Positions 2,546-55,690 of a stretch of DNA of 56,387 nt are shown one piece after another. Each line of letters opens with the position of its first letter. The first letter of the stretch is position 1. The DNA is from Lachnospiraceae bacterium (GTDB lineage Bacteria > Bacillota > Clostridia > Lachnospirales > Lachnospiraceae), in assembly GCA_017441265.1 (NCBI GenBank), contig JAFRYE010000012.1, positions 1 to 56,387 on the forward strand, in the 5' to 3' direction. Both the position numbers and the translations under genes were made by a program. A model generated the notes under the pieces. It saw only the letters and a list, made by a program, of their open reading frames with translations. It did not search any database and was not told where the DNA came from.

Positions 2546-3388
2546 ATGGAAGCAATTAATGTATCCAAGAAATTCAGAGCCGTTTGCTATGAAATCATGG
2601 ACGGATCATACGAAAGCATTGAAAAGCTGGATGCATTCCCGGAGTATCTGCATCAGGCAATGGCCGTGAAAGCCGCCGTGGCATTTTTCGACAAGGATTA
2701 CGATAAGGCAATCCAGCTGGTAGAAGGGATCATGCCGTATTGGGATGAGTGGTACTATTCCAATGTCTGTAATGAATATATGGCAGCAATGGCATTTGCC
2801 GCAAAAGAAATCGGCCGCGAGGAAAATGTGAGGGAGATCATAAAGGCGGAGCAGGAGCGGTTGTTGGCTGCAGACAGGGAAAAATGTGAAGCCGGTAGGC
2901 ATCAAAGATATAACTATTGCAAGATTATGCTGGACTACCTGGACACCGGACGCATGCCGAAGTCAGGGAAGGAACTGGAGTATGTTGTTCCTGCTGATGC
3001 CAAGTCAAAAGAGGAATTGATTTCCTCGATGAAGCTGAAGAATGCAACGGCAAAGGACAAGATAAAGTTATACGGTGTGCTTTGCATGAAAGGATTTCCG
3101 GAAGACGCTGTCCGGGCGTACGAGGAGATCAAAGACGAACTGTTATCGGAGACTGACCGCGAAAATGCTATTATAAGGTATTTGTATTTGGGAGAAGATG
3201 AAAAAGCGTTAGAAACGATTGAATGTCTCGCGACAGCTCGGTTGTGGTCAGTTGCAGCACCCACACAGGTCAGACCGATGAACTTTTTTACGCATCCCAT
3301 GATGCATAAGTTCCTGAGGGACGAAGGCAGTCTGGCGCGAATCCGTAACGCTGCGTTTATTGATAACGGAATAGTAAAAAGAAAGTAA
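2546..3388 (+). CDS. Hypothetical helical-repeat (TPR-like) protein, 280 aa
   Basis: ATG 2546 follows AGGAGG (2536-2541). The sequence is almost wholly alpha-helical in character, with repeated pairs of amphipathic helices rich in Ala, Tyr and Glu (for example residues 35-60, 75-100 and 195-230). This resembles a degenerate TPR or SEL1-type solenoid. There is no signal peptide, membrane span or catalytic motif. It is probably a cytoplasmic scaffold or regulator. The 104 bases upstream contain no clear promoter. I do not recognise a named family. Confidence 0.65.
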   Translation: MEAINVSKKFRAVCYEIMDGSYESIEKLDAFPEYLHQAMAVKAAVAFFDKDYDKAIQLVEGIMPYWDEWYYSNVCNEYMAAMAFAAKEIGREENVREIIKAEQERLLAADREKCEAGRHQRYNYCKIMLDYLDTGRMPKSGKELEYVVPADAKSKEELISSMKLKNATAKDKIKLYGVLCMKGFPEDAVRAYEEIKDELLSETDRENAIIRYLYLGEDEKALETIECLATARLWSVAAPTQVRPMNFFTHPMMHKFLRDEGSLARIRNAAFIDNGIVKRK

Positions 3389-3479
3389 CTTGTATAGGAC
3401 GATAGACTTTCTTTGCAGAGGATTGGGCAAGAGAATCGCAATTTTCCTGCCTAAGCTTTATGCTCTAACATAACAAACC

Positions 3480-3514
3480 CTTGTTACACAAAAGAACGAA
3501 TTTTGTGTAACAAG
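3480..3514. repeat. 14-bp perfect inverted repeat
   Basis: CTTGTTACACAAAA (3480-3493) and TTTTGTGTAACAAG (3501-3514) are exact reverse complements around a 7-base loop. No T-tract follows, so a classical terminator is unlikely. It lies 32 bases before the next start codon, and a near-identical single arm lies 30 bases before the gene at 455. An operator or mRNA 5' structure is possible. Confidence 0.6.
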
Positions 3515-3545
3515 ACATATTCGGTTTTAAGGAGAAAAGACGGAA

Positions 3546-3833
3546 ATGAAGAATGTAATACTGAGTGCTGATTCCGAAAATATTTTGTACTCGGTGCCGG
3601 ATGAAGTGGCGGAAAATCTTGACAAGTATTGTCTTGAATTCTGCAACACCTGGCTTCGCGAAAGCCCTGATGCAGAGAAGTATCGAATCGGAGGCGGGGT
3701 CTGTTATACCGAAGCTGATTTTGTGGATTACCTTAATACGTATATCTTTCCTGATAAAAAGTCGGAAATGGTAAGAACCCTTGGTTGGAGCATTCCGGAG
3801 GAGTATAGGAAACTGCCGTTTTTTAATTTCTGA
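3546..3833 (+). CDS. Hypothetical small acidic protein, 95 aa
   Basis: ATG 3546 follows AAGGAG (3530-3535) at a slightly long spacing. The 95 residues are acidic and soluble, with an EFCNTWL patch mid-protein and a PEEYRKLPFFNF end. No signal peptide or catalytic signature is present. The inverted repeat at 3480-3514 lies in its leader. I have seen similar small stand-alone proteins in clostridia but cannot name the family or a function. Confidence 0.55.
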   Translation: MKNVILSADSENILYSVPDEVAENLDKYCLEFCNTWLRESPDAEKYRIGGGVCYTEADFVDYLNTYIFPDKKSEMVRTLGWSIPEEYRKLPFFNF

Positions 3834-3938
3834 CAAACAAGAACGGCACATTCAGAGACTCTTTACGAACTTCGGATTTGATAAGTCTTTCGGTCACACG
3901 GAATGTGGATTATAACAGGCGATGTTTAGGAGCCAACT

Positions 3939-4445
3939 ATGGAAGTAGCAATACGAAAATGGAAAATCGAGGATAAATCGGAGCTTGCGGACGTCTTGAA
4001 CAATAAGAATATCCTGAACAATCTGCGAGATGGAGTGCCCTATCCCTATACGGAAAATGATGCGGCGGATTTTATAAGTGCAATGCTGTCGGCAGATCAG
4101 GATAAGACATTTGTATTTGCGATAACGCTTGATGATAGGGTTATCGAGAGTGTAGGTATTTTTCGTCAGGAAAACATTCATTGCCGGACTGCGGAATTGG
4201 GATACTATATCGGCGAGCAATACTGATGCAACGGATGTATGGCAGATGCTGTGAAACAGGCATGTGATTTTGCCTTTGAAGATACTGACATCATCAGGAT
4301 CGTTGACGAGTCGTTCGCGTATAATGCCGGTTCCTGCCGCGTGCCGGAAAAGGCCGGGTTTGTTTACGAGGGGACGCTCAGGAGCAATGCCTTCAAGAAC
4401 GGGAATATCATCGATATGAAAATGTATGCGATGGTAAAGCAATAG
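3939..4445 (+). pseudogene. GNAT N-acetyltransferase broken by an in-frame stop
   Basis: Residues 1-95 (3939-4223) and 4227-4445 form one continuous reading frame of a RimJ/RimL-type GNAT acetyltransferase split only by TGA at 4224-4226. The break falls in the usual YWGNGYM segment of the acetyl-CoA-binding region. Here it reads Tyr, stop, Cys, Asn, Gly, Cys, Met, so three nearby codons look mutated by single changes (TGG to TGA, a Gly codon to TGC, a Tyr codon to TGT). Downstream, AGSCRVPEKAGF and RSNAFKNG are well preserved. Recent inactivation is the simplest reading. Confidence 0.75.
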
Positions 4446-4454
4446 AGAGGTAAC

Positions 4455-5957
4455 ATGAAAACTGTAGAAATACTGGGTGCAAATCGATTTGAAACTTATA
4501 CAAAGACGCGGGAAGGCTGCCGGGCGGTCATCGTGCAGGACGGAAAGATCCTACTTACTCACGAACTGAATTCCGGCTGGTGGCTCATGCCGGGCGGTGG
4601 GACGGAAGAAGGAGAGACTCCCGAAGAGTGCGTGATCCGTGAGGTCGAGGAGGAAACGGGGTATCGTGTCCGCCCGCTCAGACGGTTCCTTTTCATGTGC
4701 GAGTATTACGAAGAATACCGCTATTCGGGGTATTTCTTCGTCTGTGAAGTGACCGGAAAAGGGCAGATGAAACTGACCGACGCGGAAAAGCGGCGCGGAG
4801 TACAGCCGGAGTGGATCCCGTTGCAGGAAGCGCTCGCTTTATTTTCCGAACACGAGTCCTATGCCGATGTGAGCGAGGAGAAAAGAGGCTCCTATCAGCG
4901 GGAATATTTGGCGCTCAGCGAGTATATGAATCTTGCACCCGAAAGCCCCGAAAGGCAGATTTACGAGCGGTTTACGGGCATAAGCTGTGCCTGCAGAGAC
5001 GCAGCCGGAAGAGAGATCCTGAAATACGACGGAGCGGCCAATGCGGAAAATGATATTCCGGTGGACGGGGAAACGGCTTTCCCGGCCTGCTCTATCTCAA
5101 AGTTCATAACCGCACAGACCGTGATGAAGCTTGAAGAACAGGGGCTTCTTGGGATTGACGAACCGGTCAACCGCTATTTGCATCAGTGGAAGCTGCTTAC
5201 GGCGGACGGAAGGGAGAGCGATGCGACGATACGGTCGATCCTCAGTCATACCGCGGGGATCGTGGACGGGGAAGACTCATTTTACGGATTGAGGCGTGAT
5301 GATCCCGAGGTCGGTTTGTCGGATATTTTGGAGGGCAGAACCGCATATAATAAACGTCGGGCCGCGACGGAAAATGAGCCCGGAACGGAGTTTGAGTACA
5401 GTGACGCCGGCTACTGCGTGTTGCAACAGATGATCGGGGAGATCACGAATCGCCGTTTTGAAGAAGTTGTCGCGGACAATGTGTTTGAGCCGCTTCACCT
5501 GAAGCGAACCTTCTTTGCTTCGCCGCGGAATCTTGAGCTTCGGGAAAAATCGCAAACCATGGCCGCGGGATATGACAGCGAAGGAGCCATGATCCCCGGA
5601 AAATACCCGCAGATCCCGGACCTTGCGGCGTCGGGCTTATGGAGCACACCGGGCGAACTGATGGCGATCGCCGAAGAATTCATCAAGGCGGTAAACGGCC
5701 GCAGCACTTTCCTGCGCAGCGGATCGGCACGGGAGATGATCCGACCGACAGAGAATTTTTCGTGGGTAGGACTCGGCCTGTTCCTGCGAGGGGATGACAC
5801 CTGCGTATCGCAGGGCTGGGGAGAAAACGGACAGTGCATGTTGCTGATGAATCACCGAACAGGAGAGATTTCCGTCGTGATGACAAACCAAGATCCCGGG
5901 GTGGATCAGACAGAATCCGGAGTGGAAAAGCTTGCGGCATTTCAGCGGAAAAAATGA
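4455..5957 (+). CDS. Nudix hydrolase fused to a serine beta-lactamase-like domain
   Basis: A 500-aa two-domain protein. Residues 1-155 are a Nudix hydrolase with a complete box from Gly48 to Tyr70 (GX5EX7REVXEEXGY). Residues 165-500 are a class C beta-lactamase/esterase-like domain with Ser213-Ile-Ser-Lys216 (SxxK), LSHTAG near 264 and YSDAGY at 315-320 (Tyr plus Asp where Asn is usual). No signal peptide is present, so both domains are cytoplasmic, which is unusual for the penicillin-recognising fold. AGAGG precedes ATG 4455. A strong terminator follows the stop. It may act on a nucleotide-linked or activated metabolite; this is inference. Confidence 0.8.
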   Translation: MKTVEILGANRFETYTKTREGCRAVIVQDGKILLTHELNSGWWLMPGGGTEEGETPEECVIREVEEETGYRVRPLRRFLFMCEYYEEYRYSGYFFVCEVTGKGQMKLTDAEKRRGVQPEWIPLQEALALFSEHESYADVSEEKRGSYQREYLALSEYMNLAPESPERQIYERFTGISCACRDAAGREILKYDGAANAENDIPVDGETAFPACSISKFITAQTVMKLEEQGLLGIDEPVNRYLHQWKLLTADGRESDATIRSILSHTAGIVDGEDSFYGLRRDDPEVGLSDILEGRTAYNKRRAATENEPGTEFEYSDAGYCVLQQMIGEITNRRFEEVVADNVFEPLHLKRTFFASPRNLELREKSQTMAAGYDSEGAMIPGKYPQIPDLAASGLWSTPGELMAIAEEFIKAVNGRSTFLRSGSAREMIRPTENFSWVGLGLFLRGDDTCVSQGWGENGQCMLLMNHRTGEISVVMTNQDPGVDQTESGVEKLAAFQRKK

Positions 5958-5978
5958 AAAACAGCAAGATGGAAACGA

Positions 5979-6011
5979 GGAACTGACCGAGGTTCGGCCG
6001 GTTCCTTTTTT
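5979..6011 (+). terminator. Intrinsic terminator after the Nudix-beta-lactamase gene
   Basis: GGAACTGACCGA (5979-5990) pairs with TCGGCCGGTTCC (5994-6005) apart from one wobble and one mismatch, with a 3-base loop, followed by six T (6006-6011). It is 22 bases past the stop. Confidence 0.8.
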
Positions 6012-6055
6012 GTGCGGGAAACTGCCGATAAATACGATTATTTTTCACTCCTTTA

Positions 6056-6064
6056 TGATATAAT
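6056..6064 (+). promoter_or_regulatory. Extended -10 promoter for the sigma/ABC operon
   Basis: TGATATAAT gives a perfect extended -10 (TG, one base, TATAAT at 6059-6064). No good -35 is seen at 17 bases, as expected for an extended -10 promoter. It lies about 105 bases before the ECF sigma start and after the upstream terminator. I found no convincing ECF-type autoregulated promoter here. Confidence 0.55.
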
Positions 6065-11114: not shown

Positions 11115-13220
11115 ATGGCGATATTGAAACATGAACTGGGGAAACTGCTGACGAGGCGAACGGTGCTGATCCTGTTGCTTCTGATCGTCATCAATCCGCT
11201 GCTGCAGCTGTATACGATCAAGACGCCGAACGAAGACGGATATTCGCTCGCGGATTACAGCAGGGTGTACCGGGAAGTCAGTTTCCGGGATGCCGATGAG
11301 ATTTCCGCAATTCTCGAAGAGAGGAAGAACAACGTCGCAGTATACAGCGAGTATTTTCTCTGCCGAAGGGTTTCCGAGGAGGCGGCGTCGGTGCTCGCGT
11401 ATGAGGACTATCTCGATACCGTCGAAAAGAAAGCCGGCGAGATAGCGATACTGTCCGCGTTTGCCGGCGATGACGGATATGCCTTGGAAAATGCGGAGAA
11501 AACCGGAGAGGTATATCGGAAGCTTCGGGGAATCCGCCCCGAGGTGCAGGATCCCATGCCTCTTCTGAACATCACGGACAACGAGATCACGGACTACCTG
11601 GCGGTGATCATTTTGTTCATCCTCGCGATCAATCTCATTTTCCGTGAGAAAAATGAGGATCAACTGAAACTTCTGCGAACGACAGCCAACGGCAGAAGGA
11701 AACTGATGGCGGCCAAAGTCGCCGCCATGTTTGTGGCGGTCGTGGCGGTCATCGCGGCTTTGTACGGGGCGAATGCGATCGTAAGCCGGTGCGTCTTCGG
11801 CACCATGGATCTGAGCAGTCCGCTGCAAAGCCTGTATCAGTACCGGACCAGCCCGTTTGCGATCAGTCTGGGCGGCTACCTGATCCGGTATTTTGCGGCG
11901 AAGATCTTAACCTGTTTTCTGCTTGGAACGTTCTTCATGCTGATGAGCGCGGTGTTTGGCAACATCGTTTTCGTCTTAACCGCGTCTGCGGTGCCGGTCC
12001 TGGTTGAAGGCGTGCTCCATGTGAAGATTTCCGCAACGCATTTTCTGGCGATCCTGAAGTACGCAAACGTTACGTACGGCATAAAGACCGGCGGCATGTT
12101 CTCGGACTATGTGAACCTAAATGTGTTTGGAACTCCGGTTAACTCATGGTGGCTGTATTGGATCCCGTGGCTGATCGCAACCGTTTTGGTCTCCTGGCTT
12201 GTCATCAATTATCTTGCGTCAACCCATGAGACGAAGGCCGTTTCCGTGAGGAAAATGAGCCTGCGCGTCGCCCCGGAGCGCCATACCTCCGTCTTCCTGC
12301 ACGAGTGCTACAAGATGCTCGTCCCCGGAAAATGCCTCATCATCCTGGTGCTTTTCGGCCTGTTTGTGATATGGTGGAATCCGGCCGCGAGGGTTTCGTT
12401 CGATTCCGCGGAGGAAGTCTATTACAAGGACTATATGGACAGCTTTTACGGGCCTTTGGATTCCGAGCGCCGTGGAATGATCGACGCGGAGAAGGCAAGG
12501 TTTGAGCGGCTTTCCGAGGAGATCGCCGAGGATCTTGCGCAGGGAAAGAGCGGGTACTATATCGATGTGAAATACAAAAGCGACCTGAACCGACAGGACG
12601 GCTTCAACAGGGTTATTGAGCATGTCGACTATCTGGAATCCGTGCCCGGCGGGTGGCTGTTTTTCGACAAGGGATATGATATCCTCACGGACGGGGAGAA
12701 TTCCCAAAACAGGGATATCATGCAGGCGTTTGTCTACGTCATTCTGCTGATCGCAGTGACATTCGGGATCTTCGGCCTTGATTACCGGTATTCGGAAATG
12801 CGGATCCTGCGGACGACGTACCGCGGCAGGAGACGGCTTCCGGGCATCAAATGCGTTCTGGGCGCGGCGTGCGCGCTGCTTGTGTTCGCCATGGTTTACC
12901 TGGTGCATATGCAAAACATCCTTGGGGCATACGGCGCGAAAGGACTCGACGCCCCGGCGGCGAGCATGGAGCATTTGGCACAGTTTTCGCCGAGTGTGTC
13001 GGTGCAGCAGTACCTTTGGATGATCCTGCTGATGCGGCTTATTGGCGGTCTGCTTATCATTGCGGCCGTTGCCCTGTTGTTCCGGTGGCTGAAAAACGGG
13101 ATCACGGTGATCATCGCGTGCGTTGTCATTTTCCTGCTGCCGCTCGTTCTGGTCGCCTTGGGTGCGCCGGGGGCGCAGTATGTTTTATGCAATCCGCTGC
13201 TGTTGGGCAACGTCTTCTGA
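11115..13220 (+). CDS. ABC-2 type membrane permease
   Basis: A 701-aa integral membrane protein. The first span is at residues 13-33. After a 120-residue extracytoplasmic loop, a block of spans covers about 160-390, and a second half repeats the plan (span near 400, outer loop about 420-525, then spans about 530-700). This two-halved layout resembles a fused pair of ABC-2 permease units, so one chain may replace a dimer. It starts 2 bases after the ATPase stop. A terminator closes the operon. Cargo is unknown. Confidence 0.85.
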   Translation: MAILKHELGKLLTRRTVLILLLLIVINPLLQLYTIKTPNEDGYSLADYSRVYREVSFRDADEISAILEERKNNVAVYSEYFLCRRVSEEAASVLAYEDYLDTVEKKAGEIAILSAFAGDDGYALENAEKTGEVYRKLRGIRPEVQDPMPLLNITDNEITDYLAVIILFILAINLIFREKNEDQLKLLRTTANGRRKLMAAKVAAMFVAVVAVIAALYGANAIVSRCVFGTMDLSSPLQSLYQYRTSPFAISLGGYLIRYFAAKILTCFLLGTFFMLMSAVFGNIVFVLTASAVPVLVEGVLHVKISATHFLAILKYANVTYGIKTGGMFSDYVNLNVFGTPVNSWWLYWIPWLIATVLVSWLVINYLASTHETKAVSVRKMSLRVAPERHTSVFLHECYKMLVPGKCLIILVLFGLFVIWWNPAARVSFDSAEEVYYKDYMDSFYGPLDSERRGMIDAEKARFERLSEEIAEDLAQGKSGYYIDVKYKSDLNRQDGFNRVIEHVDYLESVPGGWLFFDKGYDILTDGENSQNRDIMQAFVYVILLIAVTFGIFGLDYRYSEMRILRTTYRGRRRLPGIKCVLGAACALLVFAMVYLVHMQNILGAYGAKGLDAPAASMEHLAQFSPSVSVQQYLWMILLMRLIGGLLIIAAVALLFRWLKNGITVIIACVVIFLLPLVLVALGAPGAQYVLCNPLLLGNVF

Positions 13221-13251: not shown

Positions 13252-13299
13252 AATCCCGCCGCATTTTCCGAACGGAGAATCGCGGCGGGAATTTGTTTG
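13252..13299 (+). terminator. Terminator of the sigma/ABC operon
   Basis: AATCCCGCCGC (13252-13262) pairs with GCGGCGGGAATT (13282-13293) with one bulge, followed by TTTGTTT on the plus strand. The loop contains a copy of the CATTTTCCG repeat (13262-13270). Confidence 0.7.
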
Positions 13300-14032: not shown

Positions 14033-14542
14033 ATGGAAAAGGAAAATGAATACCGGAAAATGGTGTTTCGTCGATCGATACGCTATGATATTGTTTTGCT
14101 GCTTGTGCTGATCGCGGCGGTGGGAGGAACCTGGCTGGTCGCGTCCGTCGTTTCGTTCCTCAAGACATTTTTCGTCGTACTGGCGATCCTGTTCTCCGTT
14201 CTGTTTGTCGGTTTTGTGGCGCTTTTGATCAACTACCATATCAAGGTGCGGACATGGCCGATCGCCGCAGGGACAGTCGAGGAGGTATATCTTGACGATC
14301 CGAGCGGGCAGCCGACCTCGTCGGCCCGGGTGCGGTACGAGGATAAGGACGGCAACGAGTACGTGCGCGAGTGGGGCGTGTCGTCCTACGGAGACTGGGA
14401 GGACGGCTGCGAGCAGAAGGTGGCGGAGATGCTGCAGGCCGACCGCGACAGGTTTGAGGGCGCCGGCGGACCGGTGTTTTACTCGTCGAAGAATCCGGAC
14501 AAGTGCCTGATCATGCTGGAGGATTTCACAAAGAACGGTTAG
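14033..14542 (+). CDS. DUF3592-like membrane protein, 169 aa
   Basis: Two closely spaced membrane spans (about residues 18-38 and 44-66) are followed by a soluble domain (70-169) with repeated beta strands (ARVRYEDKDGNEYVREWG) and an end motif, VFYSSKNPDKCLIMLED. This arrangement and the Y-NPxxC-like ending resemble DUF3592 proteins. The start is weakly supported by GAAAGG upstream. Function of the family is unknown; it probably sits in the cytoplasmic membrane with the soluble part on one face. It lies 8 bases before the MFS gene, so they are likely co-transcribed. Confidence 0.65.
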   Translation: MEKENEYRKMVFRRSIRYDIVLLLVLIAAVGGTWLVASVVSFLKTFFVVLAILFSVLFVGFVALLINYHIKVRTWPIAAGTVEEVYLDDPSGQPTSSARVRYEDKDGNEYVREWGVSSYGDWEDGCEQKVAEMLQADRDRFEGAGGPVFYSSKNPDKCLIMLEDFTKNG

Positions 14543-14550: not shown

Positions 14551-15741
14551 ATGGCCACACTTTTGATCGCCGTGATCTATGCGGCATTTGTCGGCTTAGG
14601 GCTTCCCGACTCGCTGTTCGGGGCCTCGTGGCCGTCCATCTACACGGAGTTCGGACTGCCGTTCTCGCTGGGAGGGCTTGTCACGGGCATCTGTTTTGTC
14701 GGAACAACGATCTCGAGCCTGATGAGCGCGAGGCTCATAAAGAGCCTTGGGACCAACAAACTCACGGCAGGATGTACTCTCTTGACGGCTGCGGCATTGT
14801 TCGGGTACAGCATGTCGGGGAGTTTCCTGTTCGTATGCATCTTTGCCGTTCCGCTGGGACTCGGCGCGGGCTCCATCGACACAGCGCTCAACAACTATGT
14901 CGCCCTGCATTACAGTGCGTCGCAGATGAGTTTTCTGCATTGCTTTTACGGCGTCGGCGTCACGGTGAGTCCGTTCATCATGACGATGGTGTTTCGGGGC
15001 GGCATGGGCTGGAGAACCGGCTACCGGATTGCGGCATTCATTCAGCTCGGACTGGCGATCCTTTTGATCGCTACGCTTCCCGTCTGGAAGAAAGTGCACG
15101 GCGGGGAGACGGCGGCGGAAGAGGAGTTTGAGACTCTGACGCTGCGGGAGGCGGCATCCATTCGGGGCGTCAAGATCATGTGGATGCTCTTCGTTTGCTC
15201 GGTGGCGATCGAGGCTTCCGCCGGCGGCTGGAGCAGTACGTTTCTGGTCGAGAGCCGGAATGCGAGCGACGAATTTGCCGCTGCGGCGGTGACGTTTTAC
15301 TATCTCGGAATGACCCTCGGGCGATTCCTCTCCGGCGTTTTTGCGCGGAATCTGCACAGCTGGAAGATCGTCAAGATCGGTCTGGTGACGCTGGGGATTG
15401 CCCTTGCGCTGCTTTTGTTCGTGCCGAACAACTATGTCACGGTCGGCGCGTTGATGCTGATCGGGATCGGCAACGGCCCGATGTTTCCGAACTTCAACTA
15501 TCTCGCGCCGGAGAACTTCGGAGAGAAGCGCTCGTCCGCGATCATCGGCACGCAGATGGCGGTGTCGAGCTTTGCGTTCCTCGCGGGTCAGGTGTGCTGC
15601 GGCCTGCTGGGGCAGGCGCTGGGAATGCGGGTGTTCCCGCTGTACCTCGTCGCATTTTACGGTCTCATGCTGATCGTGTTCAGGCGCGGGGCGAAGATTT
15701 GGAAAATGCCGAAGCTGTTCGAGCGGCAGGATCATGCGTAG
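14551..15741 (+). CDS. MFS transporter, fucose permease-like
   Basis: A 396-aa major facilitator with about 12 hydrophobic spans. GGAGGG (14541-14546) precedes ATG 14551, which rules out the longer reading from 14503. Motifs include GLPDSLFGASWPSIY at the first span, GLGAGSIDTALNNYVALHY near 110 and FLHCFYGVGVTVSP near 130, all characteristic of the FucP-like sugar-transporter branch. A central cytoplasmic loop lies near 190-205. It probably moves a sugar or similar solute with protons. The substrate is not determinable here. Confidence 0.85.
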   Translation: MATLLIAVIYAAFVGLGLPDSLFGASWPSIYTEFGLPFSLGGLVTGICFVGTTISSLMSARLIKSLGTNKLTAGCTLLTAAALFGYSMSGSFLFVCIFAVPLGLGAGSIDTALNNYVALHYSASQMSFLHCFYGVGVTVSPFIMTMVFRGGMGWRTGYRIAAFIQLGLAILLIATLPVWKKVHGGETAAEEEFETLTLREAASIRGVKIMWMLFVCSVAIEASAGGWSSTFLVESRNASDEFAAAAVTFYYLGMTLGRFLSGVFARNLHSWKIVKIGLVTLGIALALLLFVPNNYVTVGALMLIGIGNGPMFPNFNYLAPENFGEKRSSAIIGTQMAVSSFAFLAGQVCCGLLGQALGMRVFPLYLVAFYGLMLIVFRRGAKIWKMPKLFERQDHA

Positions 15742-15898: not shown

Positions 15899-17167
15899 AT
15901 GGAGACGAAGGAGAACTCGCAGGAGTTGAATACGAACACCGGAAAAACACATCGCGTCAGGAACATTTTGCTCATTGCGGCACCGTTGATCGTGGCGCTG
16001 GTCGTCCTGATCGTCGTGGTGTTCTCGGGCGGGAAAAAGCCGAAGGAGAAGACGGCCGGAAATCAGACGCAGCCGACGGGCGCCCCGGAAGAGGAAGGTG
16101 TTGTCAGATATGATTTCACCGTGACGATGCCGGATTATACGAAGCAGACCGAGACAGTCCGGGTCCCGGAAAAACGGCTTACACTGAGAGTATCGGAGCT
16201 TTCCGGCTGGACCGCGTTTTGGGACTCGACGGCCGTGACGGATGCGGAGCTCACCTTCTCCAATCTGCCTGACTGGAAGCTGGTCTTTAAGAAAGCGTCG
16301 CTGTATGATTTTGACTATTCCGTGGATATCAAACTGGTGTGCGGCGAAGAGGAGTGCTTCGGCACCGGTTGCGCAACGGGAATGCTGTATTTCACTGACT
16401 GGAACGGCGACGGGGTTCAGGAATTGAGCATTGTGTCAGATCCGATTTCCTATGTGTATGACTTACAATCCCGGAAAGGCTATCGACTGGATTCGGCAAG
16501 CGAGAACGAGTGGTTTACGCTTCTGCGGGAGAGCGAGAAGGATGTCGTGATCTACACGAAGCAGAAAGGCGAAGAGCTTCGCTACGAGAGAGGAACCTTT
16601 GTCGTGGAAAATGACGCTCTTATTTTTCGGGAAATTCCGAATCCCACCGACATCGGCAGCGCCGTATATTGCCCGGAGAGTTCCAAAGTTTTTCGCTGGT
16701 TTGATTACCTTGACGGGGATGAGGAACGGCGTCAGGAAATCCGTCTGGCGGAGGACGACGAGTTCGGGATCAGTTATGTCGCGGACGGGGAATACGGTTA
16801 TTGGTATTCCACGGAAGCCGGTTATTTCCGAAGGACCGAGAGCACGATCTACCCTTTCTGGTCACTTGGGTATAAGCGGTACACCCGTGCTCTGAATGCA
16901 TATATTGCGGATCTTGACGGAGACGGGCAACGGGAGGTGTGCCTGACCTGCCTGATATCCGGGTCTGAGGGGGAAAACGGCGAGACGGGGCTTTGGCTCG
17001 TCCGAGAGAACAAACGGTTGCAGGAGATCGGCTACGCTTTTCGCTTTGCCGAAGAAAACGGCAGATTGGTCGTGAAACGCAAGAAGGCGGGAGGCGACGG
17101 GGCGGAAGAGACATTTTCCGTCGGCCTGGATACGGACGGCAGGTTGGAGCTGTACCCGCTGAACTGA
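15899..17167 (+). CDS. Membrane-anchored protein with FG-GAP/VCBS-like motifs
   Basis: A 422-aa protein. Residues 1-22 are polar and cytoplasmic, 23-44 form a single membrane span (ILLIAAPLIVALVVLIVVVF), and 45-422 lie outside the cell. The outer part contains two aspartate-rich turns, DWNGDGVQEL (about 166) and DLDGDGQREV (about 342), like calcium-binding FG-GAP/VCBS repeats. AGGAGGAAAG precedes ATG 15899. No enzymatic motif is evident. It is probably a surface sensor or binding protein. A weak 5-bp hairpin with a T-rich tail follows the stop near 17190. Confidence 0.65.
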   Translation: METKENSQELNTNTGKTHRVRNILLIAAPLIVALVVLIVVVFSGGKKPKEKTAGNQTQPTGAPEEEGVVRYDFTVTMPDYTKQTETVRVPEKRLTLRVSELSGWTAFWDSTAVTDAELTFSNLPDWKLVFKKASLYDFDYSVDIKLVCGEEECFGTGCATGMLYFTDWNGDGVQELSIVSDPISYVYDLQSRKGYRLDSASENEWFTLLRESEKDVVIYTKQKGEELRYERGTFVVENDALIFREIPNPTDIGSAVYCPESSKVFRWFDYLDGDEERRQEIRLAEDDEFGISYVADGEYGYWYSTEAGYFRRTESTIYPFWSLGYKRYTRALNAYIADLDGDGQREVCLTCLISGSEGENGETGLWLVRENKRLQEIGYAFRFAEENGRLVVKRKKAGGDGAEETFSVGLDTDGRLELYPLN

Positions 17168-17250: not shown

Positions 17251-17877
17251 ATGGATAAGTATGTTACGGGAGCTGTGATCCGCAGACTCCGGGAGAGCAA
17301 GAAAATGACGCAGGAGGAGCTTGCGGACAGGCTCTTTGTCAGCGGCAAAGCCGTGAGCAAGTGGGAGACGGGGCAGGGATTTCCGGATATCAGCCTGCTG
17401 GAGCCCCTGGCGAAGGCGCTTGACATCTCAGTGATCGAGCTGTTGTCCGGAGAGGACGTCCGAAACCGGAATCATTCGTCGAATATCGCCAAAGGCAGTT
17501 TCTACGTCTGTCCGGTCTGCGGCAATGTGATCCGGACGATCGGCGAGGCGGTGATCAGCTGTTGCGGGATCACGCTGCCGGCGCTCACAGCGGACGAGGC
17601 GGATGAGGATCATTTTCCGAAGACGGAGATCGTTGAGGATGAGTACTATGTGACGGTCGATCATCCGATGACCAAGGACCATTACATCTCATTTTTAGCG
17701 GCGGTGTCGGATCAGGGCGTTCAGTTTGTCAAACTGTACCCGGAGAGCGCCGCGGAAGCGCGGTTTTCGATCCGCCATGTGAGCGAGCTGTACGCATATT
17801 GCAACCGGCACGGGCTTTTCTCCGTAAAACCCCGCATCCGTAAAAAGACGGCGGGTTTGTGTAGGGAACGTTTATAA
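17251..17877 (+). CDS. XRE-family regulator fused to a complete desulfoferrodoxin domain
   Basis: A 208-aa protein. Residues 5-65 are an XRE helix-turn-helix (MTQEELADRLFVSGKAVSKWE). Residues 85-190 read as desulfoferrodoxin. A centre-I-like Cys4 site is formed by Cys87, Cys90, Cys104 and Cys105. A centre-II-like superoxide reductase site has His121, His138, His144, Cys184 and His187, in the family's order (HFP, DHPM, DHY, CNRHG). All iron ligands appear intact, so DNA binding may respond to superoxide, iron or redox state. AAAGGAGG precedes ATG 17251. The last 10 codons overlap a GC-rich hairpin that may be the gene's terminator. Confidence 0.85.
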   Translation: MDKYVTGAVIRRLRESKKMTQEELADRLFVSGKAVSKWETGQGFPDISLLEPLAKALDISVIELLSGEDVRNRNHSSNIAKGSFYVCPVCGNVIRTIGEAVISCCGITLPALTADEADEDHFPKTEIVEDEYYVTVDHPMTKDHYISFLAAVSDQGVQFVKLYPESAAEARFSIRHVSELYAYCNRHGLFSVKPRIRKKTAGLCRERL

Positions 17878-19277: not shown

Positions 19278-19303
19278 TTCTTCGTTTGTAACAGGGAAAA
19301 TGA

Positions 19304-19936
19304 TCATTCCCAGCGGACGCATTGTACCGTGGGATCGTCCATGAGCTGCAGGCGAACTTGCGGGACATCCATTCCGCAGGCTTTCATGTTCTCTTTCGCG
19401 GTAAGAAGATAAGTTTCCGCATTTTCCGACGAAACCTCTGCATCGCACGCGACAATGTCCGACGGACGGAGCTTAAATCCCAGTTCCGCCGCCACGTCTT
19501 CGAAGCTGCGCTGCTTTTCCAGAACCTCCAGCACGCTTCGGAACTGGAAGTAGCCGTAGATCAACACCTGCATGATGACGTCCGTGTGCCAGATCCTCTC
19601 GTAAAATCCGGTGAAGGACTCGCCCTCCGGCACGGGGGAAGGTATTTGATCGAGAATCTCGCTCACCATCGACTTCAGTTCGGCAAGCCGCCGGGTCTCG
19701 CCCGCGTACAGATAGTAGGCGACGGCGAATTCATTAACAAACATTTCCTCCTGCACATCCGAGAGATGAAGGTCGCTTTGGCTGACAAAGCAATGCCCCA
19801 GCTCATGGATAAGGTTGTACCGGTGGAAGTACAGGTCAAACCGGCGCTGCACATCCGGTCCGAAAAGCTGACGGAACCCGGCTTGCTGCTCCTCGGTTCC
19901 GGACTCGAATCTGCCGGATTGTATCACAAAACTCAT
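19304..19936 (-). CDS. Putative HELGH zinc metallopeptidase-like protein, 210 aa
   Basis: The sequence LIHELGHCF near residues 43-51 is an HExxH zinc site. A possible third ligand is the Glu in NEFAVAYYLY, about 20 residues on, a pattern like ImmA/IrrE peptidases. The rest is helical and soluble, with no signal peptide. TCGGAGGT before ATG 19936 gives a clear start. It may be a cytoplasmic protease, but the family is only tentatively assigned from the motif. A GNAT gene lies 21 bases upstream on the same strand, probably co-transcribed. Confidence 0.6.
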   Translation of the reverse strand: MSFVIQSGRFESGTEEQQAGFRQLFGPDVQRRFDLYFHRYNLIHELGHCFVSQSDLHLSDVQEEMFVNEFAVAYYLYAGETRRLAELKSMVSEILDQIPSPVPEGESFTGFYERIWHTDVIMQVLIYGYFQFRSVLEVLEKQRSFEDVAAELGFKLRPSDIVACDAEVSSENAETYLLTAKENMKACGMDVPQVRLQLMDDPTVQCVRWE

Positions 19937-24972: not shown

Positions 24973-24988
24973 GATCGGAGGTCGGAAA

Positions 24989-26969: not shown

Positions 26970-27071
26970 GAGCAGGGCTTTTGCGGGGAAAACGGATTGT
27001 GAGGTTTCATTTTCCGAAGGATGAATATCGGGTTCCTGCGGGAATCTTGGGATAGAAAGGTGGCAAATACT

Positions 27072-38937: not shown

Positions 38938-40920
38938 TCAAACCCAGGGGTTGCGCCTGCCGTACATGAGTCGGTTGAGCGCGTAGAGGATCGAGTTGTG
39001 GGATTCGCGGAGCAACACCGGAAGCAGGCTGCTGCATCCGCGGCAGTGCAGACACATCGCTCCGACTTCGGAACCGTCCTCGCGCCTCGTAAAAAACGGA
39101 ATGTGGTCTTTGAAGACGAACTGTTTGAGTTTGCGGCGCTCGTCGAAGACGTACTCGTCCTTCACCAGATTGTCCGGCGTGGTGAGAGCGAAATCCCAGA
39201 CTACACCGTTGTCCACCTCGCAGAGATTACGGTAGCGGAAGGCTTTGTCGTAGCGGGCGACGATCTTGCACCAGGCCGTGAGAAGCACCGTGTCCGTGAT
39301 GCGGGCCGGCTTTCCCTCGCCCTCCTGGCGATGGCATACCGCCTCGAGCCAGGTCGTGTTGGATTGATAGATGTGAAGCACGAAATTCAAAAACTGGCGA
39401 AGCCGCGGGCGCGTCCAGTAGGCGCAATGCGGCGAGATGGTCTCCTCCAAGAATTCCGCGGACGCGGTGCCGGTGCAGGCGAAATCGACGCCGTCCACCG
39501 GGAGATTGCACAGATCCCCGTACACAAGAACATCGCTGTCGCACAAGAAGCAGCGGTCGATGTTCTTCTTCGTCATCAGCCCGTACAGCGCAAAATGCCG
39601 CTCGAAGCAGGCGCGGTCAAAGTCCCGTGTCTCCTCGGGGCCGATGGGTGTGTAGATCTTGCGGAATACGGAGATGTCCTCCTCGTTGAGCGTCGAGCCG
39701 TCGAACCAGTTGGAGACGAAACCGCGGTTGCACTCCGCGCCGATCAGGACCACGTTTTTAAAGCCGCAGGAGCGCCCTGCGCGCTGCAGGGCATCGTAGG
39801 CGTAATCGTCGTCACCGCTGTGACAGAAAACGACGGGACAGGCCTCTGAGAGGTCGCGGTCGAGCACCGGATACACGGCGCGCTCGTTTGCGGAAAATGT
39901 CAGGAACAGCAAAAGCGGATAGCATCCGGAGATCAGCCGAAGCGTGGGCATCGGATCGGTGGCCGTAAAGCAGAGACTGAACAAAAAGCCGATCAGGACG
40001 ATGAGCACGTCGGTCTGCAGGCGGTCTTCGCTGCGGATCGGCATTTTCCAATTGATCTGCAGGATGCGGCGGATGCGGCGGAGCATCAGCACCACCGTGG
40101 CGAGCTGCGCGGCCGCGAAGATCCACAGGATGAGGTCGAACTTGAGAAACACTTCGACCGGAACGAGGATCCGCAGGAAAATGACGGCCGTGTCGGCGAG
40201 GTAGTACGCCACATGACCCATGTAGTTCTCGTCCGGGAAGAGCCGGCGATACGTTGCGGCGGAGTCGATGGCGGGATGATACTCATAGATCCGCGAGATC
40301 AGGCCGGTCTGGTAGAGAAGACAGAAGACAAGCACGCACACCGTGCAGAGGCGGATGGCGTGCAGATCGTTTCGCTGCCACAGGCGCGAGATCAGATAGA
40401 TCGGAATGATGACCGCGGCTGCGGGCGAGACCAAAACGGCGTAGACCGCCACCGTGAGGCTCGCAAGCGTGTAGCGGAGCGGCACGCGGCGGATACGCAA
40501 AGACGCCAGCACAAGCGTGGAAAATAAAACCGTCAGCAGCAGACCCGAGGGCTGCAGCACGAACAGGATATCGATTCCGAAGAAGGTTGCGTAGACCAGA
40601 AACGCGACGCGGCGGCGAATGCCGGCGACCGCGACGGCGCAGAGGTACAGAACGGCCGAGAGAATGAGACCTCCGATAAAGTAGACGGAGTAGCCAAGCG
40701 TCGGAAGCGAGAGAGCGGCAAGTGTATCGTTGAGTTTCGTGTAATCCTCTGTCATGGACCGGAACACACCGAGATCATGAAGCTTCGAATAGAAGACGAG
40801 ATAAAACAGGACGCCGCAGACGAGAAGCTTGCAGAGTGCGACAATAAGAATTCGCCGGTTGCCGGCGAAAAATGCGCGAAGCTTTGCAAAATGCGATTGT
40901 CCGTCGGCTGCCTGATTCAT
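38938..40920 (-). CDS. Polytopic membrane protein with a glycosyltransferase-like C-terminal domain
   Basis: A 660-aa protein. Residues 25-340 contain about ten hydrophobic spans. Residues 360-660 form a soluble domain with LCDSDVLVYGDLCNLP near 473, a DxD-like metal site, plus WTRPRLRQFLNFVLHIY and a CLHCRGCSS cluster near the end. The combination suggests a membrane-bound sugar transferase. The soluble part resembles no single family that I can name. The gene has its own TTTACA-17-TAAAAT promoter at 40952-40980. Envelope polysaccharide assembly is a reasonable but unproven role. Confidence 0.65.
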   Translation of the reverse strand: MNQAADGQSHFAKLRAFFAGNRRILIVALCKLLVCGVLFYLVFYSKLHDLGVFRSMTEDYTKLNDTLAALSLPTLGYSVYFIGGLILSAVLYLCAVAVAGIRRRVAFLVYATFFGIDILFVLQPSGLLLTVLFSTLVLASLRIRRVPLRYTLASLTVAVYAVLVSPAAAVIIPIYLISRLWQRNDLHAIRLCTVCVLVFCLLYQTGLISRIYEYHPAIDSAATYRRLFPDENYMGHVAYYLADTAVIFLRILVPVEVFLKFDLILWIFAAAQLATVVLMLRRIRRILQINWKMPIRSEDRLQTDVLIVLIGFLFSLCFTATDPMPTLRLISGCYPLLLFLTFSANERAVYPVLDRDLSEACPVVFCHSGDDDYAYDALQRAGRSCGFKNVVLIGAECNRGFVSNWFDGSTLNEEDISVFRKIYTPIGPEETRDFDRACFERHFALYGLMTKKNIDRCFLCDSDVLVYGDLCNLPVDGVDFACTGTASAEFLEETISPHCAYWTRPRLRQFLNFVLHIYQSNTTWLEAVCHRQEGEGKPARITDTVLLTAWCKIVARYDKAFRYRNLCEVDNGVVWDFALTTPDNLVKDEYVFDERRKLKQFVFKDHIPFFTRREDGSEVGAMCLHCRGCSSLLPVLLRESHNSILYALNRLMYGRRNPWV

Positions 40921-41010: not shown

Positions 41011-41039
41011 TTGCATTTTCCGGACGCGTGTGATATAAT
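41011..41039 (+). promoter_or_regulatory. Sigma-A promoter overlapping a CATTTTCCG repeat
   Basis: TTGCAT (41011-41016) and TATAAT (41034-41039) are separated by 17 bases. The -35 and the start of the spacer make up TTGCATTTTCCG, a copy of the dispersed repeat. The same 12 bases occur at the clpB promoter. Confidence 0.85.
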
Positions 41040-41751: not shown

Positions 41752-41773
41752 TTTTACATTTTCCGAAAAAAGC

Positions 41774-44911: not shown

Positions 44912-44933
44912 CCGAGCCGCGGAAAATGACCGC

Positions 44934-45584: not shown

Positions 45585-45690
45585 ATCGGTGTCTTTCCTT
45601 GACAAAAGAGGGACTTGCGGTTAAACTTAGCGTGAGATTGCGTCAGCGCATTTTCCGAAGAAGAAAACGCCACTGCACCGCTTTGCGGGG

Positions 45691-50981: not shown

Positions 50982-51185
50982 TCTTTTCCTTTCCGGGCTT
51001 GTCCCCTTGCCTACTCGCCCCACTTGAGGCGATGAAGCTCCCCCTTTTTCAGTCGTCACAGATCATCCCGCCGGCAGGGTTCTCTGTGCGCTACCAATCC
51101 TTTGTGGGTTTAACATAAAACCGAAACCTAAAATACATTTTAAAAATTCCTGAAAAAATCCACATGTTTTCCACACATTTTCCGA

Positions 51186-51224: not shown

Positions 51225-52148
51225 TCAAAACCATTTTTTCTTTTTGAGAATGATGAGACATGTCACGACAATTGTGAGGCACACGACTCCGACAATCGGG
51301 TACGCGTAGGGCGAGTCGAGCTCGGGCATGTGCGTAAAATTCATCCCGTACCACCCGGTGATGAGCGTGAGCGGCGTGAAGATCGTTGCAATGATCGTGA
51401 GGAAGGACATGTTTCGGTTTTGCTTGACCTCGAGTTGGGAATGATAGAGGTCGCGCACCTGCATCGTGTGCTCGCGAAGGGCGGTCACGTTGGACTGCAG
51501 ACGCTCGGCGCGCTCGATGAAAAGACGGAAGAAGCGGAGGTTTTTGGAGGAGAAGAAAGCGTTCTCATTTTCCTCAAGCTCCTGACCGAGATCGATCAAC
51601 TGCTCGTAGTGGGTGCGAAGGTCGAGCAGTTCGCTGCGGATGTCCACCAGGCGCTCCATGATGCCGGTGAGATCGCCCGCCAGGATGCGATCCTCCATCG
51701 AGTCCATCTCTTTTTCGTACTTCTCCAGCGTGATCAGGTCGCCGGTGACGATGCCCTCCAAAAAGTCGTAGAGGAAGCGCTCGAGGGAAGGGAACTTCCA
51801 GCGCTTGCTGGCCTGGATGCGCGAGAGGATCGACTGCGCCGTGCCGTCATCGTCGAGAATGACGATGCCCCTCTCGTCGATGGCGAAGAGGAAGGTGTGC
51901 GGAGGACTCTCGATGCTCGTGAAATCCGGGATCGCAAAGCAACCGGTCAGCGAATCGTAGTTCACCTGGATGGCGGTGACGTCTTCGACTTCGGTCTCGG
52001 CCTCGAGATCGAGGTCGATTCCCATGTCGAAGAGATCCTTCTTTTCTTCGAACTCTTCGAGGGAAATGTTGGCTACGTAAGGAATCTTGCGGTTATCGAT
52101 ATCTTCGGCGCTGCACTCGGTCAGCGTATTTTTGATCTGGTAGTACAT
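51225..52148 (-). CDS. corA: CorA-family magnesium/metal transporter
   Basis: A 307-aa membrane protein. The GMN selectivity motif is in YGMNF near residue 270, followed by MPELDSPYAYP. Two C-terminal spans (about 245-265 and 280-302) follow a long cytoplasmic helical domain. Start ATG 52148 is chosen because AAAGGAC lies seven bases before it. CorA proteins form pentamers that admit magnesium, cobalt or nickel. A minus-strand terminator follows the gene. Confidence 0.92.
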   Translation of the reverse strand: MYYQIKNTLTECSAEDIDNRKIPYVANISLEEFEEKKDLFDMGIDLDLEAETEVEDVTAIQVNYDSLTGCFAIPDFTSIESPPHTFLFAIDERGIVILDDDGTAQSILSRIQASKRWKFPSLERFLYDFLEGIVTGDLITLEKYEKEMDSMEDRILAGDLTGIMERLVDIRSELLDLRTHYEQLIDLGQELEENENAFFSSKNLRFFRLFIERAERLQSNVTALREHTMQVRDLYHSQLEVKQNRNMSFLTIIATIFTPLTLITGWYGMNFTHMPELDSPYAYPIVGVVCLTIVVTCLIILKKKKWF

Positions 52149-52262: not shown

Positions 52263-52275
52263 GGTAAGATCATAT

Positions 52276-53754: not shown

Positions 53755-53761
53755 TCGCGCG

Positions 53762-55519
53762 TCAGGGCTCGAGCGCGGCAACGATCGGAACAAAGCAGTC
53801 CCCGACGATCAGGAATTCAGCCGTCAGCGCGTGCTCTGAGGAGGCATTTGCCGTAAGGACCGTGATACCGTCGGTGAGGCTTAACTTCTTCCAGTCAACC
53901 TTCACGGATCCTCTGGTGAGCGTGCCTTCGCCGGCTGCGGAGAGACCGTTCCAGCGAGTGATATCGCTGTCGGAGATCTCGGCGTAGTTTTTGCCGTCGG
54001 GGCCGATCAGCTTCTCATCGGTGCGGTAGCCGTTGTTGGAGATCACGGTAACGTAACTGTCGGAAAGGATAGCTTCGGGCTTGCTGTTTGCATAGTAAGC
54101 GGTATTGTCCGTCGCGATGTAGCCGTTTACGTCGGTCGAGTTGACGCTTACTTTTGTGACGACGGTCTGTCCGTCTTTCTTCGGAACGCTCAGGTCCCGG
54201 AAAGGATTCAGGTCCGCAAGATAGTAGAAATTACTGTCGCCGCGGAAACTGTCCAGTGTATAAATGTTGCAGAGGATCTCCGCGCCGTCATCGGTGCGAA
54301 CGTCGATCGGATACTCTTCGGTCGCAATAGGCTCACCGTCCACCTTTGTTACGGCGATGAGGCTGTGGCGGAAGCATTCCTTGGTCGTGTCGATGCCGGT
54401 GATGGTCTTGGTGTCCGGATCAAAGGCTGCCGGACGTCCGTAAGCGGCAACTTCGTAGACGTCAACCGTGGTGCATTCGTCTACGGAAAATGACGTAAAC
54501 AGGGATGTCTTTTGTACCGGCTCACTCTTGAATGCCGCGCGAAGTTCTGCGAGGTACTGTTCGGTCCGGTTGCTGATGACAGCCTGGTCTTTTTCAAGCA
54601 TATCGTTTATCTGAGTCGAAATGATGTTGCGGAGGATCCAGTCGATGGCAGTCTTCGATACATATACCGAGGCGATGGCCGAATCCGAAACCCTCGGGTC
54701 TCCGCCCCAGTAAATGAGATAGGAATATCCTTTGAAACGCAGGAACGAACCGGGAACGCTCTCGCCGTCACTGAGGTCGACGACTTCGAGATCGTCGCCG
54801 ATCACTGCAGAAACCTGCGAGAATGTCATCGACGAATCGAGTCCGTTACCGAGATTTTTCTTTGCCCGATTGGGATACTGATAATTGCTGACTCCGACAA
54901 CCAGGGTTTTCGCAGCGCGATCGACGGTTGCGGGGTCGGCGTTCTCATCGTAGGTGCTGTAGCCGTTGCGGCTGAACATGAAGGAGACTTCGGGACTGAA
55001 ACGGATCAGGTCGGAAGCTCCGACATAGTAAAACTCCGCTGCGCCGGGAGCGTATTCATACTCCTTGTTGATCAGCGCGATCGTTTCCCCGATCGACATA
55101 TTGAGATACTGCGTGACATCGCCGTAATCGATGACCTGCTTCTCAATCGGGCTCTCGGTCGGAGCGGGAGACGGCGCTGCGGTCGGCTCCGGCGTAGGTT
55201 CCTCGGTGGGAACTGCCGTGGGCTCTTCCGTGGGCGCTTCCGTGGGAATTGCAGTGGGCTCCTCGGTGGGCTTTTCGGTCGGAACCGCAGTGGGCTCAGG
55301 GGTCGGAACCGCCGTGGGCTCCGCCGTCGGCATTACGGAAGGATACGCAGTCGGTGCAGCAGAGGGCGAAACGCTCGCCGTGGCATTTTCCGAGGAATTT
55401 GTCGTTGCATTTTTGCTGTCGCATCCTGCGAACAGGACGGCGGCGAGGAGCAGGATGACGACCAGTAAGATGTAGTTGATGGCGTCGAGCTCGTTGTTTG
55501 CGGCCTTTGTAGTCTTCAT
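53762..55519 (-). CDS. Pro-Thr-rich lipoprotein with an N-terminal helical segment
   Basis: A 585-aa lipoprotein. Residues 1-33 form a signal peptide with lipobox LFAGC (Cys near 33). A long linker (about 40-130) repeats PTEEPTAVPTE-like units. A first domain (about 135-290) is followed by one (about 310-585) resembling the main domain of the gene at 52276. The DNA upstream of the two genes is also similar, so the pair probably arose by duplication with regulation included. It is likely exposed on the cell surface. Function unknown. Confidence 0.75.
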   Translation of the reverse strand: MKTTKAANNELDAINYILLVVILLLAAVLFAGCDSKNATTNSSENATASVSPSAAPTAYPSVMPTAEPTAVPTPEPTAVPTEKPTEEPTAIPTEAPTEEPTAVPTEEPTPEPTAAPSPAPTESPIEKQVIDYGDVTQYLNMSIGETIALINKEYEYAPGAAEFYYVGASDLIRFSPEVSFMFSRNGYSTYDENADPATVDRAAKTLVVGVSNYQYPNRAKKNLGNGLDSSMTFSQVSAVIGDDLEVVDLSDGESVPGSFLRFKGYSYLIYWGGDPRVSDSAIASVYVSKTAIDWILRNIISTQINDMLEKDQAVISNRTEQYLAELRAAFKSEPVQKTSLFTSFSVDECTTVDVYEVAAYGRPAAFDPDTKTITGIDTTKECFRHSLIAVTKVDGEPIATEEYPIDVRTDDGAEILCNIYTLDSFRGDSNFYYLADLNPFRDLSVPKKDGQTVVTKVSVNSTDVNGYIATDNTAYYANSKPEAILSDSYVTVISNNGYRTDEKLIGPDGKNYAEISDSDITRWNGLSAAGEGTLTRGSVKVDWKKLSLTDGITVLTANASSEHALTAEFLIVGDCFVPIVAALEP

Positions 55520-55563
55520 GGGGAATCTCCTTCCGGTTTGTCGTTCATTTTACGAACCTGTTG

Positions 55564-55645
55564 ATGATAGCATAACAAAAAGATGTTACAAAGTAAGATG
55601 CAATCCTGTTACATTTCGATTACGATCTGTTACGTTTGTGTTACA
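55564..55645 (-). promoter_or_regulatory. Promoter region with GTTACA boxes upstream of the second lipoprotein
   Basis: Plus-strand boxes are GTTACA at 55585, 55608 and 55640, GTTACG at 55629 and ATTACG at 55619. Most intervals are 10-11 bases or about twice that. On the minus strand TTGTAA (complement of 55586-55591) and TATCAT (complement of 55564-55569) make a promoter with 16-base spacing, the box acting as -35. It lies between the divergent lipoprotein and clpB genes. Confidence 0.6.
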
Positions 55646-55661
55646 TCCTCGGAAAAAGTGC

Positions 55662-55690
55662 TTGCATTTTCCGCGAAACAGTGGTATTGT
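55662..55690 (+). promoter_or_regulatory. clpB promoter overlapping a CATTTTCCG repeat
   Basis: TTGCAT (55662-55667) and TATTGT (55685-55690) are separated by 17 bases. The -35 and following bases are TTGCATTTTCCG, identical to the promoter at 41011. No CIRCE or CtsR site is evident. Confidence 0.65.

Follow-up and report, generated by a model that had tools for sequence, protein, structure and literature searches.

DNA words with which bacteria tag their own DNA for uptake have so far been described in two Gram-negative families. The DNA uptake sequence (DUS) of Neisseria is an asymmetric word of about 10 bases that occurs in 943-3236 copies, in and between genes, in bacteria that carry type IV pili, and the Neisseriaceae use eight DUS dialects that track the core-genome tree (PMC3630211). 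The uptake signal sequence (USS) of the Pasteurellaceae has a 9-base core, two dialects within one family (Hin and Apl), enrichment in non-coding DNA and a predicted minor-pilin reader (PMC12616744, PMC1939737). Published uptake sequences are described as unpolar and unevenly spaced, with a non-coding share above expectation, and their frequency is argued to rise by molecular drive, through repeated import and recombination (PMC1939737). Uptake is described as sequence-independent in almost every competent species besides Neisseria and Haemophilus in a paper of 2025 (PMC12040237), and a review of the same year presents Neisseria as an exception among bacteria that generally recognise DNA of any source (PMC12236230). 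A limited search of the open-access literature found no uptake sequence in Bacillota; for the naturally competent Veillonella parvula, uptake bias was suspected and two genomes were screened for DUS, and the account of that screen gives more than 800 9-mers with at least 100 copies, no sequence of at least 10 bp with at least 100 copies, and no DUS (PMC5397411). The present analysis concerns the nine-base word CGGAAAATG in a stretch of 56,387 nucleotides from a Lachnospiraceae bacterium (the window; contig JAFRYE010000012.1, contig 22 of the genome examined, which comprises 2.585 Mb in 79 contigs). Judged from its genomic distribution, CGGAAAATG is probably the DNA uptake sequence of this bacterial genus, written in the dialect of the host’s own clade and predicted to act in uptake, in what looks like a Gram-positive case of such self-tagging.

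In the window, the 8-base core GGAAAATG and its complement CATTTTCC occur 46 times, balanced 23:23 between orientations, and 32 of these copies extend to CGGAAAATG or CATTTTCCG (15:17); this recount is identical to that of the first-pass annotation, whose figure of about 20 near-variants with five A also agrees with the 22 copies (14:8) of GAAAAATG/CATTTTTC counted here. The same annotation had put the over-representation of the core at about thirty times, which is right against base composition (46 copies vs. 1.49 expected) but too high when the expectation comes from order-3 Markov models (413-511 kb of host sequence; approx. 9- to 13-fold) or from synonymous-codon shuffles of genes (approx. 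8- to 10-fold). Across 100 dinucleotide-preserving shuffles of the window, CGGAAAATG had a mean of 0.86 copies and a maximum of 3, compared to the 32 observed. The whole genome contains 1042 copies (531:511), approximately one per 2.5 kb; the reversed word, counted as a control, occurs 4 + 5 = 9 times genome-wide, and this is too low a yardstick for chance, given that an order-3 Markov model of 413 kb predicts 13.2 copies of CGGAAAATG (173 observed), so that all fold values against the control are too high. CGGAAAATG is the commonest 9-mer in 511 kb of the host genome (209 copies), and the runner-up (144 copies) overlaps it. The host stretches that were read amount to about one fifth of the genome and are a non-random sample, drawn in most cases from the first 20 kb of a contig. 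Words containing GATC rank high in the window too (CGATCTCC, 22 copies; GACGATC, 46 copies), and are less striking than the main word.

Codon usage accounts for a small part of this excess. In 413 kb of host sequence (91.5% coding by our gene calls, which come from a simple custom caller that misread parts of the relative G002), the core was found in 120 sense, 104 antisense and 63 intergenic copies, with three more spanning gene boundaries. When codons were shuffled synonymously within genes (30 shuffles), the means were 19.4 sense and 9.0 antisense copies (28.4 in total, against 224 observed); for CGGAAAATG, the observed 63 sense and 56 antisense copies compare with expected values of 7.9 and 4.1. 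Synonymous-codon shuffling thus accounts for about one tenth to one eighth of the coding copies, in agreement with the initial remark that no protein motif explains the word. When coding and intergenic sequences of 511 kb were modeled separately, CGGAAAATG was enriched 24.5-fold between genes and 11.1-fold within them, compared to 0.6 (coding) and 0.4 (intergenic) for the core read backwards under the same models. The first-pass annotation had cast the word as a genome-wide tag, and had named counts near a Markov expectation, or an explanation by codon pairs, as grounds for giving this up; both were checked and neither holds, and the 1042 genomic copies, the codon shuffles and the counts in relatives (see below) bear the tag out.

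The word itself is short and rigid. Single-letter variants are enriched mainly at positions 1 (5.2- to 10.1-fold), 3 (3.3- to 7.3-fold) and 9 (A 6.1, C 2.8), weakly at position 4 (1.8- to 3.2-fold) and for A at position 2 (2.6) and C at position 5 (2.3), and not at positions 6, 7 and 8; adding or removing one A abolishes the enrichment, leaving no tolerance for insertions or deletions. Clear flanking bias is limited to one base on either side of the core, and the base beyond the nine letters avoids G; the Hin-USS, in contrast, has downstream AT-rich blocks (PMC1939737). A short rigid word with unconserved flanks fits a site read by a protein and not a mobile or dispersed element, and the spread of a longer mobile repeat was rejected on the same ground. 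Orientation is balanced over 19 contig blocks (511 kb; heterogeneity chi-square 10.05, 18 degrees of freedom), and, with replication polarity judged from the strand composition of contigs, the G-rich strand carries 186 copies and the other strand 156 (p 0.12), as the earlier description of the word as not polar implies. Spacing is exponential, i.e., random (coefficient of variation 0.97); these 511 kb contain no word-free islands, and the largest gap, 8.2 kb, lies at a block end. Inverted pairs at short distance are no more frequent than expected (11 neighbors less than 60 bp apart vs. 12 expected; 8 of the 11 in opposite orientation), unlike in Neisseria terminators, and an inverted-pair terminator role was therefore rejected. 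Orientation balance, random spacing and the lack of an inverted-pair excess together make roles of the Chi, FtsK-orienting polar sequence (KOPS) and terminator types unlikely.

The host is a member of an uncultured Lachnospiraceae genus within the Bacillota. Its PilB protein shares 79-93% identity, at near full length, with 15 loci from metagenome-assembled genomes titled Lachnospiraceae bacterium or Lachnoclostridium sp., several of which come, by their record titles, from rumen, omasum, reticulum or horse faeces. Among 22 genomes of the genus, CGGAAAATG counts range from 63 to 1060 (reversed-word controls 1-34), compared to 37-240 in 15 genomes from other genera of the family (controls 8-76; 1.4-5.9 times control) and 0.2-3.8 times control in 24 genomes from other families of the order. 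A sister form, GGCAAATGC, separates two clades within the genus. Ten clade-A genomes have 728-1060 copies of CGGAAAATG and 88-266 of GGCAAATGC (ratio 3.0-9.2), and seven clade-B genomes have 212-435 and 191-311 (ratio 1.1-1.5); the ratios do not overlap once G007 is set apart, which carries 453 and 496 copies and is B-like by its ratio of 0.91 though labelled A in the tree. G012 combines 253 copies of CGGAAAATG and 265 of GGCAAATGC with 463 of a third form, AAATGCGGC (control 33), that remains at 26-80 copies in the other 21 genomes (controls 23-96); set beside the Pasteurellaceae USS, it resembles AAGTGCGGT, which is taken as chance. In G016, GGCAAATGC predominates (215 copies, control 41) over CGGAAAATG (96). 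The word or its sister form is enriched in 20 of the 22 genomes.

Lists of 8-mers from partial sequences of the 22 genus genomes and one genome of another genus gave CGGAAAATG(A/C) as the clade-A form, GGnAAATGCGGC as the G012 form and (T/C)G(G/A)(C/A/T)AAATG(C/T) as the clade-B form, which is best seen in G001 and has its core letters set by the search pattern; the lists of G002, G003, G007, G013, G014 and G020 rest on 7-20 kb each. A FastTree phylogeny of PilB (16 genomes) and PilC (12 genomes), covering 17 of the 22 genomes, separates the genomes labelled clade A from the rest with support of 1.00 (G002 and G007 received this label from their CGGAAAATG counts), and groups five clade-B genomes (1.00) and G006, G016 and G018 (1.00). 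Tested against this tree, the favored form shifts by clade and follows phylogeny, between A and B in proportion and in G012 in kind. In pilus loci of other Lachnospiraceae and Clostridia, mostly about 22 kb long, no comparable word turned up, a result that excludes little, as genus loci of the same size contain only 1-8 core copies.

Mobile islands of the Neisseriaceae can be recognised by their shortage of uptake sequences (PMC7371117). The phage portal family PF04860 matched in one of the 22 genus genomes, the clade-A genome G005, at two places. The 60 kb of prophage DNA read around these places contain four core copies, compared to 4.4 expected from a local Markov model and 20.4 at the density of the host (the other 129 kb read of this genome; Poisson P 1.2e-5, Fisher 2.5e-4), a scarcity that concerns one genome and prophage DNA with unmapped ends and a lower G+C content (0.49). 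The phage-like regions lie at C8 60001-100000 (L196, L197) and C9 1-20000 (L198) and contain, in addition to the portal gene, other phage-like genes and few word copies. The relaxase family PF03432 was found in four of the 22 genomes (G006, G018, G016 with a weak match, and G008), that is, in all three low-word genomes and in one of the 19 others (Fisher p 0.0026). Self-tagged uptake may go together with a low number of conjugative elements; the three genomes form one clade, and the absence of relaxases was dropped as support for uptake, being confounded by phylogeny and of little weight.

The genus possesses the machinery that uptake would require. ComEC was found in 19 of 19 genomes searched, in two pieces in G016 and G017; these pieces (G016:C63 24535-25331; G017:C57 53707-54488, with stops) reflect either an assembly frameshift or decay. 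ComEA occurs in all 22 genomes, in 21 of them over the cut-off, and the host protein combines SLBB and helix-hairpin-helix domains. DprA was detected in 20 of the 22, without a match in G009 and G016. Type II/IV secretion ATPases are present in 22 of 22, with a long PilB-type match (E <1e-130) in 17 and partial or missing matches in the others; as a separate observation, G012 has an extra ATPase gene of 371 amino acids between pilB and pilT (L126 10824-11939). The host pilus genes comprise pilB, pilT, pilC, two major-type pilins, a PilD-like gene, pilM and one PilN/O-like gene, followed by minor pilins in the order PilV-like, PilX-like, FimT-like and PilW-like; the pilins are named by gene order, prepilin motif and size, the PilD and PilN/O names are likewise assigned by inference, and Pfam searches of five pilins returned an N_methyl match only. 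The operon resembles the FimT/ComGD type of tip complex known from competence pili and has a basic FimT-like member, whose globular part has an isoelectric point of 9.5 in the host; this pilin was found in 14 of 16 genomes looked at, and the value is 7.9-9.9 in all of these but G005 (6.1). The charge of the PilV-like pilin was considered as a dialect mark and dropped as mixed (5.5 in the host against 7.9-9.4 in four further members of clade A; 5.3-5.8 in four members of clade B, with 8.9 in G017).

Over-representation, orientation balance, an excess beyond codon usage, a non-coding excess, dialects, scarcity in prophage and the machinery, by which an uptake sequence is recognised in genomes, were all found. 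The genomic picture matches that of an uptake sequence except for inverted-pair terminators, and agreement with the functional definition is predicted. Compared to the Neisseria DUS, the word is a different one, the host belongs to the Bacillota, the two main forms differ in proportion and inverted pairs are not in excess; where the DUS is read by the minor pilin ComP, a reader is here predicted from the pilin genes. Cells of the genus would take up free DNA via retractable type IV pili, a complex of minor pilins at the pilus tip would bind DNA that carries the word, and the best guess for its DNA-binding part is the basic FimT-like pilin with PilV-, PilX- and PilW-like partners; FimT of Legionella appears to bind DNA without sequence specificity (PMC8897410), whereas a sequence preference is proposed here. 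The bound DNA would pass ComEA and ComEC and then recombine with the aid of DprA and RecA. Fragments with the word would enter and recombine more often than others, and CGGAAAATG together with its close variants would therefore build up wherever the sequence permits, on both strands and at positions that are not fixed. The preference of the reader may drift between clades, and this drift is proposed to shift the favored form. We infer transformation by these bacteria, reading of the word by the pilus and the identity of the reading pilin from these genomic observations. For the wider scenario, that a self-recognition uptake sequence read at the pilus tip arose independently in the Bacillota and shifted its form between clades, while two sister species lost or never had the word and kept the machinery, the balance of the evidence tilts slightly in favor.

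Several observations weigh against an uptake sequence, or limit the case for it. Some concern G006 and G018, in which neither form is clearly enriched (CGGAAAATG 63 and 73 copies, controls 23 and 15; GGCAAATGC 49 and 36, controls 40 and 84) and the CGGAAAATG values fall within the range of the other genera. Both retain ComEC, ComEA, DprA and the same pilus operon, so that the presence of the machinery is not enough to predict the word; its absence would have to be explained by a changed reader. A hidden dialect was sought in approximately 130 kb of each genome and rejected: no other dispersed word was found, and the most frequent words belong to local repeats, tandem or palindromic. In G018 there are also paired palindromic repeats around CCTATGAAA and AGAATCTCG that resemble repetitive extragenic palindromic sequences or miniature inverted-repeat transposable elements (L026 ~4059-7160, L027 ~16245-16480, L029 ~16375-16474). 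The dialects of clades A and B are less distinct than their ratios suggest; GGCAAATGC is enriched 3.0- to 6.7-fold over control in clade A as well as 2.9- to 5.0-fold in clade B, and the two dialects therefore differ in proportion, not in presence. Retention of host sites in relatives is modest in clade A (23 of 86, compared to 0.247 for words of the same composition) and in clade B (3 of 29 vs. 0.173). High retention was seen only in the reverse direction, where 23 of 48 sites of clade-A relatives are kept in the host genome (vs. 0.241); for clade-B sites the count is 3 of 7 (vs. 0.120). The sample is small and the alignments favor conserved genes. Such turnover is what one expects of a word that a drive maintains and that has no local function tied to each position. 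The lack of paired terminators and the single low-G+C prophage, described above, belong on the same side, as does the fact that all 36 PilB matches of at least 52% identity are titled as metagenome-assembled genomes. The main weakness is that a search of the open-access literature found no report of transformation for this genus.

Other explanations of the word fare less well. It could be created and kept by an orphan methyltransferase and biased mismatch repair, and change when the enzyme changes, as has been proposed for the highly iterated palindrome HIP1 of cyanobacteria, a short and very frequent word that is replaced by alternates in some lineages and tracks methyltransferases; single-base deviations from HIP words fall preferentially on the first and last letters (PMC4390886), and variants at positions 1 and 9 of the present word are common too. 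HIP words are palindromic, however, whereas CGGAAAATG is asymmetric, and its forms share letters and shift in proportion instead of being replaced wholesale. PF01555 (N6/N4 methyltransferase), the sole family searched, is not conserved in the genus; matches exceed the cut-off in 8 of the 22 genomes, the host has two matches below it, and the word or its sister form is enriched in 20 of the 22. A methylation-driven origin is on these grounds unlikely. We also regard as unlikely a site for chromosome architecture, at which a conserved nucleoid protein would recognise the word within the cell. Such a site would account for a word that is unpolar, present throughout the genome, commoner between genes and at background level in prophage; yet the spacing is random and not regular, turnover of sites between species is strong, and shifts of form within a genus, or the lack of clear enrichment in two relatives, would be unexpected for a housekeeping protein. 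We know of no candidate architecture protein with approximately 1000 rigid 9-base sites.

Chi sites are short asymmetric words, frequent and lineage-specific, and CGGAAAATG shares these properties; as a recombination hotspot of this type, or as a replication-polar motif such as Chi or KOPS, it should nevertheless show polarity, and none was found among contigs (chi-square 10.05), between strands (186 vs. 156) or relative to genes (120 sense vs. 104 antisense copies), which makes such a role very improbable. Hardly credible is an origin in codon-pair, amino-acid or base-composition bias, or in the spread of a longer repeat. The Glu-Asn reading phase does hold 81 of the 120 sense copies, but the shuffles predict 28.4 coding copies where 224 exist, intergenic DNA shows the stronger enrichment, the antisense count comes close to the sense count, and the flanks are not conserved; codon or composition bias was rejected on the basis of the synonymous shuffles and the separate Markov models. 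Among the candidates listed in the first-pass annotation, an uptake-type sequence fits best, considering the shift between clades, the level in prophage, the random spacing and the pilus and competence genes, and a methyltransferase site is weakened, as far as one family can tell.

The individual copies in the window can now be placed in their context. By our gene calls, nine of the 46 core sites are intergenic, in agreement with the roughly nine noted before. Four copies of CGGAAAATG were examined by eye. The intergenic copy at 13262..13270 (reverse strand) falls within the loop of a hairpin that is GC-rich and followed by a T-rich stretch, as its earlier designation as a terminator loop implies, and the copy at 24983..24991 (forward) overlaps an ATG start behind GGAGG, as previously noted for position 24984. 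Two intergenic copies that had been assigned to promoters, at 41014..41022 and 55665..55673 (both reverse), are indeed located upstream of TATAAT and TATTGT, respectively, although the promoters themselves are putative. Further intergenic copies occupy 44920..44928 on the forward strand and 27008..27016, 41757..41765, 45649..45657 and 51176..51184 on the reverse strand. Five copies could be aligned with relatives. The core at 19420..19428 (reverse) is also present in G003, the sole relative aligned there; at 20502..20510 (forward) it is shared by four of 11 aligned relatives (G005, G008, G010 and G011), and the clade-B genomes G001 and G017 have GGTAAATG; at 22650..22658 (forward) it is found in none of 14, G008 having GTAAAATG; and at 23484..23492 (forward) and 23609..23617 (reverse) it recurs in five of six. 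The window count adds ten forward copies, at 4051..4059, 5044..5052, 5368..5376, 12326..12334, 14054..14062, 30552..30560, 35708..35716, 38105..38113, 39891..39899 and 54484..54492, and eight reverse copies, at 11636..11644, 17112..17120, 17611..17619, 28108..28116, 30752..30760, 33377..33385, 34913..34921 and 55384..55392. The core without the leading C (GGAAAATG) was counted on the forward strand at 2821..2828, 11486..11493, 12250..12257, 14041..14048, 15701..15708, 16606..16613, 19295..19302 (intergenic by the gene calls) and 40176..40183, and on the reverse strand at 13127..13134, 20237..20244, 20281..20288, 27578..27585, 40042..40049 and 51566..51573.

Other features of the window include a gene at 31549-37224 for a protein of 1891 amino acids with 13 MBG_2 (YGX type) stretches, within which the 10-mer AGGGCAACTA occurs seven times between 33764 and 36566, and an apparent transporter cluster of adjoining genes for a solute-binding-like protein (7628-10252; below the Pfam cut-off), an ATP-binding cassette (ABC) ATPase (10249-11112) and an ABC-2 membrane protein (11115-13220).

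If CGGAAAATG and its sister forms do serve as uptake sequences, they would add a third, Gram-positive case, with a word that shifts between clades, and would indicate that sequence-tagged transformation evolves repeatedly. The genus would then allow a new test of the idea that the word is driven by a reader that prefers self DNA, and the word could be used as a marker of the genomes and mobile elements that belong to one exchange group. For the biology of these bacteria, it would mean that an uncultured, ruminant-associated group swaps genes by natural transformation.

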